Positions 4,726 to 11,152 of a stretch of 64,000 nt of DNA are shown here, in pieces. Source of the stretch: Actinomycetes bacterium (lineage in GTDB: Bacteria; Actinomycetota; Thermoleophilia; RBG-16-64-13). A program made the translations under genes and the position numbers. The notes beneath the pieces are model-generated. The model saw nothing but the letters and a program-made list of their open reading frames with translations. It made no database searches and was not told the DNA's origin. Within the stretch, counting starts at the first letter, position 1, and every line of letters starts with the position of its first letter. The DNA lies in NCBI GenBank assembly GCA_024637035.1, contig JAGXFW010000008.1:1-64000 (forward strand). The letters are read 5' to 3'.

Positions 4726-4789
4726 TCAGCCTGCCGGACCACACCTCCCGGCATGTGTCCTCTCGTGGCGGTGAATCCGGTCTGTGCAT

Positions 4790-5270
4790 GATGTGGACAA
4801 CGTCTCCCCCCGTTGCGGCAACAGCGGATAGTCCCCCTCGCAACCTGTGGAAGGAAGCATCGGCGGACGCTGTCAGTGGACCACCTCCCGCTTCACTTCG
4901 CGACACAAGCCCGCAAATTGCAGGATTCCTTATTTTTGTTCCAGGTTCGATGGGCCGCGTCCTGTCCTTCGCGTCATCCGCGATCACCCGCTCTCGACTC
5001 GAACGGGTGTCTGGCGACGGTCTTCAGCGGTCTTCGCTGACGACTTCCTGGAATGGTGTATCCCCAGAATCCCCAGAAACCGCTCATCGACCCCGACCTC
5101 TGTTTCACGTTCCGGTTCTTTGTCCACAGATGTGGAACCGCTTGTGTATAAGCCAGAGTCTTCCCTGCTCCTGGACATTTATCAGTTACGGTTCCATATG
5201 AAACACGGGTCGCATAGGCGGCTCTGAGCGGTCGCCGGAGCCCTGCTGAGATGCTCATACCTGTGGAAAG
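4790..5270. other. oriC: Left part of the origin region: DnaA-box cluster between rpmH and the ATPase gene
   Basis: The non-coding stretch between the rpmH promoter and 5350 holds DnaA-box-like 9-mers. These are TTGTCCACA on the minus strand at 4792-4800, TTGTCCACA on the plus strand at 5120-5128, TTATACACA (perfect) on the minus strand at 5143-5151, and CTTTCCACA (one mismatch) on the minus strand at 5262-5270. It contains AT-richer patches such as ccttatttttgttcc near 4928. No gene of credible composition lies here; the overlapping short open frames look random. Confidence 0.6.
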
Positions 5271-5350
5271 AGTGCTTTGCGCAAGCTAGAATGGTCTTCG
5301 TGTTTCGGAAGGTCTGATACATGCCGGTGCGCACGCCGCAAAGGGGATGA

Positions 5351-6121
5351 ATGGAAGCGGAAATCGAGAGCACCACGGGAGAGGCGGTGATCACCTCGAC
5401 CCCCGGCCTGCCGGCCGAACCGGCGCTGCTTGTGGCCTACTACGTGGGTGAGAGGACGCCGCCCCGGGTGTACCGGATACCGGGAGACGACCTCGCCGCA
5501 GTGCTACACGCGACCGCCGAGCTCATCGAGGAACACATCCGGACCGCCGGGAGTCGCATGCCCACACTCGCCGTGCGCGAGCTCGTAGACAACCTGTCGC
5601 ACGCGGGCACGGCCGGCGCCGTGGTCAGCCTTCTCGATGGCGGCGACACGCTCCGCGTCTCAGATCGGGGCGCGGGCATCCAGGACAAGGCGCGGGCTCG
5701 TCTTCATGGATTCACAACGGCGAGTGCAGACCTGCGCGAGGTGATCCGGGGGGTCGGGTCGGGACTGGGGCTTGCCGCGGCAACGCTCGAGGCGCTGGGC
5801 GGCACTCTCGAGATAGACGACAATCTCGGCGGAGGCACCGTGGTCACGGCCCACGTGCCTCGAATGCCCGAAGCCACTGCACCCTCCACGACGGAGGCTG
5901 TAGGGCCCACGATCTCGGACCGTCAGCTACGCGCTCTTCTGCTGATCGTCGAGCTCGGACCCGTTGGTCCCACCGCGATCGCTCGTGAACTCGGCATCTC
6001 GGCTTCCACATCGTATCGAGACCTGGTGACCCTCCAGGAGGCCGGATACGTCGATACCGGCGGAGACGGTCACCGGCGGGCGACCGATCAAGGTCTCGCA
6101 TACGTGCAGGCTGTACTATAG
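5351..6121 (+). CDS. GHKL-type ATPase domain fused to a winged-helix DNA-binding domain, unknown function
   Basis: The 256-residue soluble protein has a histidine-kinase-like ATP-binding domain at about residues 55-175, with N box VRELVDNLSHA, G1 box VSDRGAGIQ and G2 box GVGSGLGLAAA. A helix-turn-helix follows at about 190-256 (RQLRALLLIVELGPVGPTAIARELGISASTSYRDLVTLQEAGYVD), similar in layout to IclR/MarR winged helices. There is no HisKA dimerisation helix, phospho-acceptor histidine or membrane segment, so it is not an ordinary kinase. An ATP-dependent transcription or origin factor, or an anti-sigma-like kinase, is possible. The ATG is preceded by aaagggga. It sits within the origin region and is co-directional with dnaA, 75 bp upstream. 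Its function is unknown. Confidence 0.75.
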   Translation: MEAEIESTTGEAVITSTPGLPAEPALLVAYYVGERTPPRVYRIPGDDLAAVLHATAELIEEHIRTAGSRMPTLAVRELVDNLSHAGTAGAVVSLLDGGDTLRVSDRGAGIQDKARARLHGFTTASADLREVIRGVGSGLGLAAATLEALGGTLEIDDNLGGGTVVTAHVPRMPEATAPSTTEAVGPTISDRQLRALLLIVELGPVGPTAIARELGISASTSYRDLVTLQEAGYVDTGGDGHRRATDQGLAYVQAVL

Positions 6122-6196: not shown

Positions 6197-7651
6197 ATGG
6201 ACAAGAAGAACACTGAGACGATCTGGACGGAGGCGCTCGCGGTCATCGCGACCCGCGTCAACGAGGGCACGTACCGGATCTGGTTCCAGTCGACGGTCGG
6301 CTTGGAGTTCACCGGCGACACGTTCATGGTGGGCGTCCCGTCCGAGTTCGCTAGAGACTGGGTCCACTCGCGCTTCCTCGATCTGATGAGCGAATCCGTG
6401 TCGACGGTGGTGGGCGGCACTGTCAAGTGCCGTGTCGCCGTGTCGGCCGACTTGGCCCGCAGACTCGACGAGGAACCATCGGTGGCGACTGCCCCGCCGC
6501 CGTCCACTGTGACGGGAGCCCGGCCACCGTCTTCCGCGGCGGCGGAGATAGAGCCCCGGTACCGCACATCGGCCCCACCGGCCATGCCGATCACGCCGCA
6601 CGTGGTGCAGCCTTCCACCGAAGAGCTGGGACTCAACGGGAAGTACACGTTCGAATCATTCGTCATCGGCCCGTCGAATCGCTTCGCCCACGCGGCGGCG
6701 CTGGCTACCGCTGAGACTCCGGGCAGCAAGTACAACCCGCTTTTCATCTACGGAGGTGTGGGTCTGGGTAAGACCCATCTGCTCCAAGCCATCGGCCACT
6801 ACGTGGTCAGACACGCGCCCCATCTACGGGTGAAGTTCGTGACTATCGAGGCCTTCACCAACGAGTTCATCAACTCGCTTCGAGACGACTCGATCGAGGG
6901 TTTCAAGCGGCGCTATCGCGACAATGACGTCCTTCTCATGGACGACATCCAATTCTTGGAGCACAAGGAGCAGACGCAAGAGGAGTTCTTCCACACGTTC
7001 AACTCACTCTACGACGCCGGCAAGCAGATCGTCGTCTCGAGCGATCGCCCCCCGAAAGCTCTTCAGACCCTGGAGGACCGCCTTGTTTCCAGGTTCGCCT
7101 GGGGTCTGACCACCGACGTGCAGGCGCCGGATCTCGAAACGCGCATCGCAATCCTGCGCAAGAAGGTGCTCACCGACGGTGTGCGCCTCGACGACGGAGA
7201 GGTGCTCACGCACATCGCGTCCCGTGTCCCCACGAACATCCGCGAGTTGGAGGGGTGCCTCACTCGGGTGGTGGCCTACGCGTCGTTCAACAATCGGCCC
7301 ATCAGTGTGGATCTCGCCCGGGAGGTGCTGAAGGACATCCCCGAGGTCTCCGGCACCAGGGTCACGGTCGATCTGATCCTGAACGCGGTTTCTGCCACAC
7401 TCGGGATATCGATAGCTGAGATCCGGGGCGATCGTCGCACCCGATCGGTAGTGCAGGCGCGGCATCTCGCCATGTACTTGGCGCGAGAACTCACGGACTC
7501 GAGTCTCCCGAAGATCGGCGAGAAGATCGGCGGCAGGGATCACACGACCGTGCTTCACGCCGTGGACAAGATCGGCTCACTGCTTCGTGAAGACCGCGAG
7601 ACATACAACCTCGTGCAGCAACTCACCACCAAGATCAAGAGCGCGCGATGA
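6197..7651 (+). CDS. dnaA: Chromosomal replication initiator protein DnaA
   Basis: DnaA is the AAA+ initiator that binds DnaA boxes and melts oriC. The 484-residue protein has domain I (DKKNTETIWTEALAVIATRV), a proline-rich domain II (about 90-140), and the AAA+ domain with Walker A YGGVGLGKTHL, Walker B VLLMDDIQF and a sensor I region (QIVVSSDRPPK). Domain IV carries the DNA-binding signature GGRDHTTVLHAVDKI. The ATG at 6197 gives a normal domain I. DnaA-box clusters flank the locus on both sides. Confidence 0.98.
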   Translation: MDKKNTETIWTEALAVIATRVNEGTYRIWFQSTVGLEFTGDTFMVGVPSEFARDWVHSRFLDLMSESVSTVVGGTVKCRVAVSADLARRLDEEPSVATAPPPSTVTGARPPSSAAAEIEPRYRTSAPPAMPITPHVVQPSTEELGLNGKYTFESFVIGPSNRFAHAAALATAETPGSKYNPLFIYGGVGLGKTHLLQAIGHYVVRHAPHLRVKFVTIEAFTNEFINSLRDDSIEGFKRRYRDNDVLLMDDIQFLEHKEQTQEEFFHTFNSLYDAGKQIVVSSDRPPKALQTLEDRLVSRFAWGLTTDVQAPDLETRIAILRKKVLTDGVRLDDGEVLTHIASRVPTNIRELEGCLTRVVAYASFNNRPISVDLAREVLKDIPEVSGTRVTVDLILNAVSATLGISIAEIRGDRRTRSVVQARHLAMYLARELTDSSLPKIGEKIGGRDHTTVLHAVDKIGSLLREDRETYNLVQQLTTKIKSAR

Positions 7652-8002: not shown

Positions 8003-9112
8003 ATGAGAGTCGTCACCCGAAAAACAGATCTCGTCGAGTCCCTTGCTATCGTGAACAAAGCGGTTTCATCGCGCAGTTCGATCCAGGTGTTATCGGGAGT
8101 ACTTCTCGATTGCATGGGCGAGGTCCCGACCCTCTCGGCCACCGACATGGAGATATCTCTTCGCGCCCCTCTGGCCGGGCGTGTGGAGGAAACAGGGTCT
8201 CTAGTACTCCCTGCTCGCATCCTCACCGACATAGCGAAGAGCCTTCCGGCCGGTGAAGTGACCATCGAACAGAAGCCGGGGGAATCGCAGGTGGAAGTAC
8301 GCTCGAAAGAGTCGTTCTTCTCGCTTCATTCCATAGCGCCTACGGACTTCCCCCAGTTCCCCGTGTTCCCTCTCGAGCAAGGCTTCGAGGTCGAGAAGGC
8401 GGCTTTTCTTCAGACGATAGATCGCGTGGCACCGTCTGCGTCAAGAGACGAGACGAGGCCGGTGCTGACCGGCGTCTTGATCCATGTCTCGAAGAACTCG
8501 GTGAAGATGGTGGCTACCGACAGTTACCGCCTCAGTGTGATGGAGACCCCGATCGAAGCATCGGTCGCTGACAAGGTGCAGGCCATCGTGCCGGCCCGCT
8601 CGCTGCTCGAGCTCTCTCGGATAGGAGCGAGCAACCCTGCGGAGCGCATCCACATCGTGCCCACCAGCAACCAGGTGCTGTTCGAGGTGGGCGGAGTGAG
8701 ACTGATCTCTCGTCTGATCGACGGACAGTTCCCCAACTACCGGCAACTCCTGCCCGAGTCATTCGACTATGAGGTCGTGGTGGACAAGGCGGAGTTCCTC
8801 GAGGTGGTCCATCGCGTCGGCCTGCTCGCCCAGAAGAGCGCTCCCGTCCGGCTGCGGTTCGAGCCGAACACACTGACCGTGGCCGCCGAATCGCAGGACC
8901 TCGGAAGAGCGCGGGAGAGCGTGCCGATCAAGTACGATGGAGAAGTGCTCGAGATCGGGTTCAACCCGGAGTTCGTGGTGGCGGGTGCTGCAGCCGTCGA
9001 CGGCGACTCAGTCGTACTGCGCTTCATCAGTCCATTGCGGCCCGGATTGATCAAGGGCGTGGCAGACGACGACTTCCTGTACCTGATCATGCCTATTCGG
9101 CTGACGGACTGA
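8003..9112 (+). CDS. dnaN: DNA polymerase III beta sliding clamp
   Basis: The beta clamp encircles DNA and tethers DNA polymerase III and repair factors. The 369-residue product shows the three repeated clamp subdomains, beginning MRVVTRKTDLVESLAIVNKAV and ending in the typical C-terminal YLIMPIRLTD. Clamp motifs include FFSLHSIAPTDFP, RPVLTGVLI and VATDSYRLSV. The ATG follows a good SD (gaggagag). It comes after dnaA, the classical order. Confidence 0.97.
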   Translation: MRVVTRKTDLVESLAIVNKAVSSRSSIQVLSGVLLDCMGEVPTLSATDMEISLRAPLAGRVEETGSLVLPARILTDIAKSLPAGEVTIEQKPGESQVEVRSKESFFSLHSIAPTDFPQFPVFPLEQGFEVEKAAFLQTIDRVAPSASRDETRPVLTGVLIHVSKNSVKMVATDSYRLSVMETPIEASVADKVQAIVPARSLLELSRIGASNPAERIHIVPTSNQVLFEVGGVRLISRLIDGQFPNYRQLLPESFDYEVVVDKAEFLEVVHRVGLLAQKSAPVRLRFEPNTLTVAAESQDLGRARESVPIKYDGEVLEIGFNPEFVVAGAAAVDGDSVVLRFISPLRPGLIKGVADDDFLYLIMPIRLTD

Positions 9113-10489: not shown

Positions 10490-11152
10490 TTGAACGGAGA
10501 TCGTGACAGGGCGCCACATCACCCGCGGCCCCCCGGGCCTCGGCGCGCGGGGCGTGGTGGATCTGCCGATCATCAGGCACACTACGGCATGCCTGATCGG
10601 CTCGGGGACCTCCTCCCAGGAGCGCTCGCGGCTCAGTCGCACGACGACGGTAGCCGGGTGTCTCGAACCTTGGCTCGGGTGTGGCCCGATGTCGTCGGGC
10701 TGGAGGGCGCGGCCAACTCGCAGCCCCATGTGCTCCGGAACGGAAGGCTTACGGTGGCGACTTCGTCGTCCGCGTGGGCGCAGGCCCTCCAAGACCGCAG
10801 CGGGGAGGTGGTGAAGAGGCTCGCGTTGGCTCTTGAGCCGGGCCTGGTGTCCTCCGTGCTATTCAGGCCGGCAGGTTGGGATCCGTGCGCCGGTGACGGA
10901 TCCGTGCGCCCGCTGAAGGCGGCCCCCCACGAGTGGCTTTCCTCCGATGATCAGACCCGGGAGGGCGGCACTGCGGGGGCTGCGCTGGGTCGGCCTCGGA
11001 AGAGGATGCTGAGTCGCGAAGAAGAGGAGGCCATCGAAGCGGTGCGAGGTTCGGCCGTAGAGGAGAGGCTCGGCGACCTCATGGCTCGCGCCATGCGGGC
11101 CGGTTTGGAGTATGGAACGCCCGAGGAGGACGGAGCGGAAGGGGGAGTGTGA
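10490..11152 (+). CDS. DUF721 protein, probable DciA-like helicase operator
   Basis: The product contains the DUF721/DciA core: a short helix (PDRLGDLLPGALA) followed by WPDVVGLEGAANSQPHVLRN and GRLTVATSSSAWAQALQD. DciA proteins are thought to load the replicative helicase DnaB in most bacteria, and actinobacterial members sit between recF and gyrB as here. The TTG at 10490, 2 bp after recF, has an SD (cgggag) and gives 220 residues; an ATG at 10589 lacks an SD. The C-terminal half is a low-complexity extension with an acidic, Arg-rich end (MLSREEEEAIEAVRG). The assignment to DciA is by family and position only. Confidence 0.8.
   Translation: MNGDRDRAPHHPRPPGPRRAGRGGSADHQAHYGMPDRLGDLLPGALAAQSHDDGSRVSRTLARVWPDVVGLEGAANSQPHVLRNGRLTVATSSSAWAQALQDRSGEVVKRLALALEPGLVSSVLFRPAGWDPCAGDGSVRPLKAAPHEWLSSDDQTREGGTAGAALGRPRKRMLSREEEEAIEAVRGSAVEERLGDLMARAMRAGLEYGTPEEDGAEGGV

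Follow-up and report, generated by a model that had tools for sequence, protein, structure and literature searches.

The window is the whole 64,000-nucleotide stretch of DNA that was analysed. It contains, on the forward strand, an open reading frame which starts with ATG and, stop codon included, spans positions 5351-6121, encoding a protein of 256 amino acids. On one side of this gene lie rpmH, rnpA, yidC, and jag in divergent orientation. On the other side dnaA follows on the same strand, and beyond it dnaN, recF, dciA, gyrB, and gyrA. Between the stop codon of the gene and the ATG of dnaA (position 6197) there are 75 nt, the distance given by an earlier reading of the letters without database searches (the sequence-only reading). 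No promoter-like site is present in this gap, and no terminator-like site was detected in the region scanned. In the window, cumulative GC skew is lowest at position 8374, near dnaN; this minimum is compatible with an origin here and is not sharp.

Pfam assigns two domains to the protein, both over the curated cut-offs, namely HATPase_c (PF02518; residues 73-171, E 2e-11) and an IclR/MarR-type helix-turn-helix (residues 203-235, E 3e-6); the domain searches place the latter among winged helices of the IclR/MarR/TrmB type. The sequence-only reading had described a GHKL ATP-binding domain joined to a winged helix, with no sensor, HisKA, or receiver domain. Both parts of this description hold, as Pfam finds none of these three domains in the 256 residues, and neither HisKA nor STAS has a match among 44 family members. 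The domain order is hairpin-GHKL-winged helix, and the GHKL domain passes into the winged helix by a short linker, with no transducer (S5-like) domain in between. NCBIfam gives only generic kinase and helix-turn-helix matches, weak and far under their cut-offs. Within its own genome the sole close match is the gene itself; the others align over only a part of it with at most 39% identity, and the ATPase motifs of those inspected are like those of histidine kinases. A structure model was built from the window protein and one relative (L038) only. Its confident part is the winged helix (pLDDT 82-93, residues 191-256), whereas confidence is low for the ATP domain (mean pLDDT 55), so that a dimer geometry is unsupported by the model and Foldseek ranks are weak evidence.

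Table 1. Features at the GHKL gene and its surroundings (positions in the window; "." denotes no strand).
Feature	Position	Strand	Basis
GHKL ATPase-winged helix gene	5351..6121	+	ORF, Pfam domains, 136 relatives, dN/dS 0.20
N-terminal beta hairpin, conserved, residues 25-44 (consensus R-I-A-V-Y ... P-R-V)	5423..5482	+	alignment; strands 25-32 and 39-44 in low-confidence model
N box, residues 70-88 (MPTLAVRELVDNLSHAGTA)	5558..5614	+	E77, N81, H84 invariant, 137/137
G1 box, residues 105-109 (DRGAG)	5663..5677	+	D105, G107, G109 invariant
G2 box / ATP lid, residues 133-140 (RGVGSGLG)	5747..5770	+	G134, G138 invariant; G136 in 136/137
C-terminal winged helix, residues 187-256; R223 (recognition helix) in 129/137	5909..6118	+	Pfam, pLDDT, alignment
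dnaA, downstream gene	6197..7651	+	Pfam (three domains); probably same transcript as GHKL gene
dciA, separate gene	10562-11149		PF05258
Exact DnaA box TTATACACA	5143..5151	-	box search
DnaA box TTGTCCACA, 1 mismatch, one arm of palindrome CCACAGATGTGG	5120..5128	+	box search, congener, k-mer enrichment
Two adjoining DnaA boxes, TCATGCACA + TTGTCCACA, 1 mismatch each	4783..4800	-	box search
Probable promoter of GHKL-dnaA transcript, TGGAAA-17-TAGAAT	5264..5292	+	promoter scan; conserved in congener
30-nt block, direct repeat TCCCCAGAATCCCCAGAA / TCCCCAGAA, identical in congener; possible operator (candidate)	5050..5079	.	congener comparison
Block CGACACAAGCCCGCAAATTGCAGGATTCC, identical in congener	4901..4929	.	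congener comparison

The distribution of the protein was followed within the Actinomycetota only. It is present in 49 of 99 relatives searched, and a phylum-wide draw of 397 genomes gave further matches in about 25 family-level groups. One of the relative genomes (G137) is presumably that of Rubrobacter xylanophilus. Altogether, 136 loci besides the window carry the GHKL protein, and orthologues include those of Eggerthella lenta (L084; PMC3035228), Atopobium parvulum (L130; PMC3035223), and Cryptobacterium curtum (L134; PMC3035227). A single-protein scan of named public genomes yielded at least one relative, in a "Coriobacteriales bacterium" (L038).

The 137 loci read, the window included, comprise seven in which the contig ends 3-214 nt past the GHKL gene; several of the seven belong to genomes of one contig that seem to have been opened at dnaA. 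At each of the remaining loci (130/130) dnaA is the next identified gene on the same strand. The conservation beside dnaA in other Actinomycetota, which the sequence-only reading had proposed to check, is therefore found, and the scatter of homologues with no link to dnaA that it had considered is excluded. The median distance to dnaA is 21 nt, and 102/121 distances are at most 100 nt, with a few 4-nt overlaps of the ATGA type; the start codons used are estimates, least reliable for divergent DnaA proteins. Such short gaps and overlaps point to co-transcription and, in places, to translational coupling. On the other side of the gene rnpA or yidC is found in most loci. In family f3 neither was found upstream (3 kb of upstream sequence are available in L065 and L067), and the GHKL gene still adjoins dnaA. 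In family f19 (e.g., L099, L103, and L104) the dnaA-dnaN interval holds 17-20 DnaA boxes, 11-17 of them exact, as compared to 3-5 upstream. The two families together indicate that what stays constant is the link to the dnaA gene rather than a link to the rnpA side or the box cluster. In several deep lineages of the phylum the dnaA operon probably begins with the GHKL gene.

Families f1, f2, and f3 of the window's class, probably Thermoleophilia, carry exactly one copy per genome (E < 1e-60), whereas in families f4-f8 of the same class a profile search gave no orthologue at E 1e-15. In these latter families the stretch between rpmH and dnaA, in genomes where both ends were found, is plain intergenic DNA of roughly 220-500 nt. 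Relocation of the gene in f4-f8 was considered and rejected, given the profile search without orthologue and the rpmH-dnaA stretch without a relative. Trees of the GHKL protein and of DnaA were compared over the 124 loci having both proteins. Every testable family (at least two members) is monophyletic in both trees, with the exception of f1 in the GHKL tree. The mirror-tree correlation is 0.54, against a maximum of 0.18 in 500 shuffles, and 0.42 when taken between families only. In comparison with a congener, dN/dS is 0.20 for the GHKL gene and 0.08 for dnaA. This dN/dS and the 136 further loci set the gene well apart from a chance reading frame. The agreement of the trees shows that the gene has been inherited vertically with dnaA, and some families have lost it. 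Plasmid copies gave no tblastn match, and the pattern matches seen in viral sequences include no relative.

The hallmarks of the GHKL superfamily, that is, the Asn of the N box, the DxGxG of G1, and the glycines of G2, are all found in the protein. Eleven positions are invariant in 137/137 sequences and likewise in the 44-member alignment: E77, N81, H84, D105, G107, G109, G120, G134, G138, G151, and G162. N81 is preceded by Asp or Glu in 132/137, as in MutL (ELVEN) and GyrB (EVVDN). The residue four positions before it (N-4) is Glu in 137/137, and the Asn of histidine kinases is not found there. Glu at this position is the general base in GyrB, MutL, MORC, and SpoIIAB, whereas histidine kinases have Asn. 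The E77-x3-N81 motif matches that of GHL proteins which hydrolyse ATP and of Ser/Thr kinases of the SpoIIAB type, and differs from that of histidine kinases. The "kinase-like" label of the sequence-only reading, with intact N, G1, and G2 boxes, was right as to the motifs and needs amendment as to type, since the N box does not read N-x3-N and is GHL/SpoIIAB-like. The lid RGVGSGL is similar to those of histidine kinases and SpoIIAB, and a profile search against solved structures matches sporulation kinase B, BCKDK, CheA, MutL, and SpoIIAB. From motif, lid, and profile matches together, the protein is expected to hydrolyse ATP or to transfer phosphate to Ser/Thr, and not to phosphorylate histidine. 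H84 (window 5600-5602) is an invariant His in the N-box helix with no obvious counterpart; MutL-type proteins have Asp there.

DnaA boxes in the window were counted at up to one mismatch. Four lie upstream of the GHKL gene (4783, 4792, 5120, and 5143, only the last being exact), none within it, and a single weak one beyond dnaA (7710). The location "between DnaA-box clusters" of the sequence-only reading is therefore correct for the upstream side only. The dnaA-dnaN box count of family f19 is far above that of the other families, the window included. The palindrome CCACAGATGTGG (window 5120-5137) consists of two head-to-head DnaA-box-like sequences, and its core CACAGATGTG occurs in 17/128 upstream regions across the phylum, with 0.07 expected. 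The words enriched upstream are DnaA boxes, with TGTGGATAA in 73/128 regions (0.28 expected) and TGTGGAAAA in 66/128 (1.0 expected), and DnaA-box-like words reach 3.8 per kb upstream versus 0.08 per kb inside the gene (about 50-fold). An operator common to all lineages was not found, k-mer enrichment of the upstream regions giving DnaA boxes almost only. The probable promoter in the window overlaps a DnaA-box-like sequence, TGTGGAAAG, at 5262. The blocks at 4901-4929 and 5050-5079, which contain no good DnaA box and derive their conservation from a single genome pair, are candidate binding sites of the GHKL protein itself. The word CTGGGGATA/TATCCCCAG, taken from the second block, occurs upstream of the gene in 5/18 genomes of family f1 (0.02 expected). 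The repeat in this block looks like a DnaA-box variant or the site of another protein.

The reading preferred here, to which a probability of roughly one half is given, is that the GHKL protein may be an ATP-switched DNA-binding regulator which is made with DnaA and acts on the dnaA promoter or on oriC. Directly supported are the two folds, an ATP site that is intact, the unchanging place before dnaA, the vertical inheritance, and the upstream density of DnaA boxes. We infer the ATP switch, the binding site, and the effect on initiation. The sequence-only reading had suggested an ATP-responsive regulator of dnaA or of initiation, and this suggestion finds support in part. Binding of ATP would close the GHKL lid and pair two protomers. 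This pairing would fix how far apart the two winged helices lie and would in this way gate binding to a predicted site in the dnaA promoter/oriC region, and hydrolysis via E77 would reset the switch. Co-production with DnaA could then tune dnaA transcription, orisome assembly, or both to ATP status or to the DnaA level. The evidence in favour consists of the 130/130 linkage to dnaA, the short gaps, the single copy, the parallel trees, the invariant ATP site, the 94% conservation of R223, the box density, and the promoter overlapping a DnaA-like box. Against it, the only words common to the upstream regions are DnaA boxes and no target site was found; moreover, neighbourhood alone is no proof of function. 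Indeed, rnpA, rpmH, and yidC have long adjoined dnaA and play no part in initiation. Related families lack the gene and replicate normally, so there is no universal need for it. A bolder and only tentative form of the proposal, judged improbable on balance, is a lineage-specific initiation factor, in which a winged-helix protein that is gated by ATP and translated together with DnaA would bind oriC next to DnaA and set the start of replication. If true, it would represent a class of DnaA partner described for no bacterium.

The strongest rival is a Ser/Thr kinase like SpoIIAB or CapK, which its winged helix would bring to oriC and whose substrate would be DnaA or a partner, or else the DNA-binding domain of the kinase itself. 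It is considered unlikely, even though GHKL Ser/Thr kinases show the E-x3-N pattern of E77 and N81 and the profile matches SpoIIAB (anti-sigma F; 1til/1l0o, E 9e-5) and BCKDK (E 4e-8). SpoIIAB and RsbW also share with the GHKL protein a similar N-terminal strand and a helix before the N box, but they have no winged helix. The anti-sigma kinase, which the sequence-only reading had named as a known family of unrelated role, finds no family match, although the motif is compatible with a kinase of SpoIIAB type. Single-stranded DNA arises at an opening origin. A precedent exists in CapK-CapS, found beside immune operons, where an HTH-STAS-GHKL kinase activated by single-stranded DNA controls a STAS-winged-helix repressor (PMC13373217). 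In both cases a GHKL ATPase/kinase is coupled to winged-helix DNA binding that controls the adjacent operon, the control being predicted for the protein studied here. However, CapK-CapS are two proteins with STAS, whereas the GHKL protein is one chain without it, always beside dnaA and with a domain order other than that of CapK. No STAS-domain or sigma/anti-anti-sigma partner adjoins the gene, whose fixed neighbours are rpmH, rnpA, yidC, and dnaA (an unlinked partner is possible), and the winged helix has no invariant Ser/Thr acceptor, T220 being present in 111/137.

An ordinary transcription regulator, which would autoregulate the operon or control genes elsewhere with no direct role in initiation, is suggested by the IclR/MarR/TrmB type of the winged helix; it is judged quite unlikely, because a free-standing regulator would not usually show so invariable a linkage to dnaA or be inherited in parallel with DnaA. 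The N box RELVDN resembles the E-L-V-[DE]-N of GHL proteins, with its general-base glutamate, and the D-x-G-x-G is shared as well. Together with a profile match to MutL residues 11-78 (E 2e-6) and a phmmer match to PMS2 (E 4e-5), this would suit an ATP-gated clamp of the MutL/GyrB/MORC kind, serving origin architecture or segregation rather than gene control. Such a clamp is very unlikely, as no transducer domain follows the ATPase and the G2 box RGVGSGL is nearer to the lids of histidine kinases and SpoIIAB than to the different GHL lids. An orphan histidine kinase or its remnant, for which HATPase_c being the best Pfam match would speak, is largely refuted by the lack of HisKA and receiver domains, the invariant Glu at N-4, the fused winged helix, and the constraint over the whole protein.

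No description of a GHKL-winged helix gene beside dnaA was found in the open-access literature, nor a named family; the single domains are well known, and their fusion as an obligate neighbour of dnaA appears to be undescribed. DnaA regulation is taxon-specific, and the protein regulators listed for it, among them DiaA, HobA, SirA, and Hda, are those of E. coli, H. pylori, and B. subtilis (PMC13270200); none of these four families is among the Pfam/NCBIfam matches of the GHKL protein. The latter makes a good candidate for a so far unrecognised protein that controls dnaA or DNA replication, and a directly testable one for its deep lineages, among which are bacteria of the human gut and mouth. 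A precedent for reasoning from an unknown gene of the replication operon to an initiation factor is DciA, whose conserved, uncharacterised gene was later shown to be essential for initiation (PMC5109545); the analogy is of position only, and the proteins are unrelated.

The best Foldseek match of the low-confidence model is DIP2311 of Corynebacterium diphtheriae (PDB 3lmm; E 2e-6), presumably a larger protein that also pairs a GHKL-type domain with a winged helix. It differs in its length of 477-555 residues and in an extra domain missing from the GHKL protein; the TM-score is 0.39 and the identity 15%, and sequence searches do not detect it. A variant of the domain arrangement occurs in Coriobacteriales (L084, L122, and L123; e.g., E. 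lenta), where a long Pro/Gln-rich linker, of more than 100 residues in L084, separates the GHKL domain from the winged helix and both domains are kept. In the same three genomes the N-terminus of DnaA is strongly diverged.
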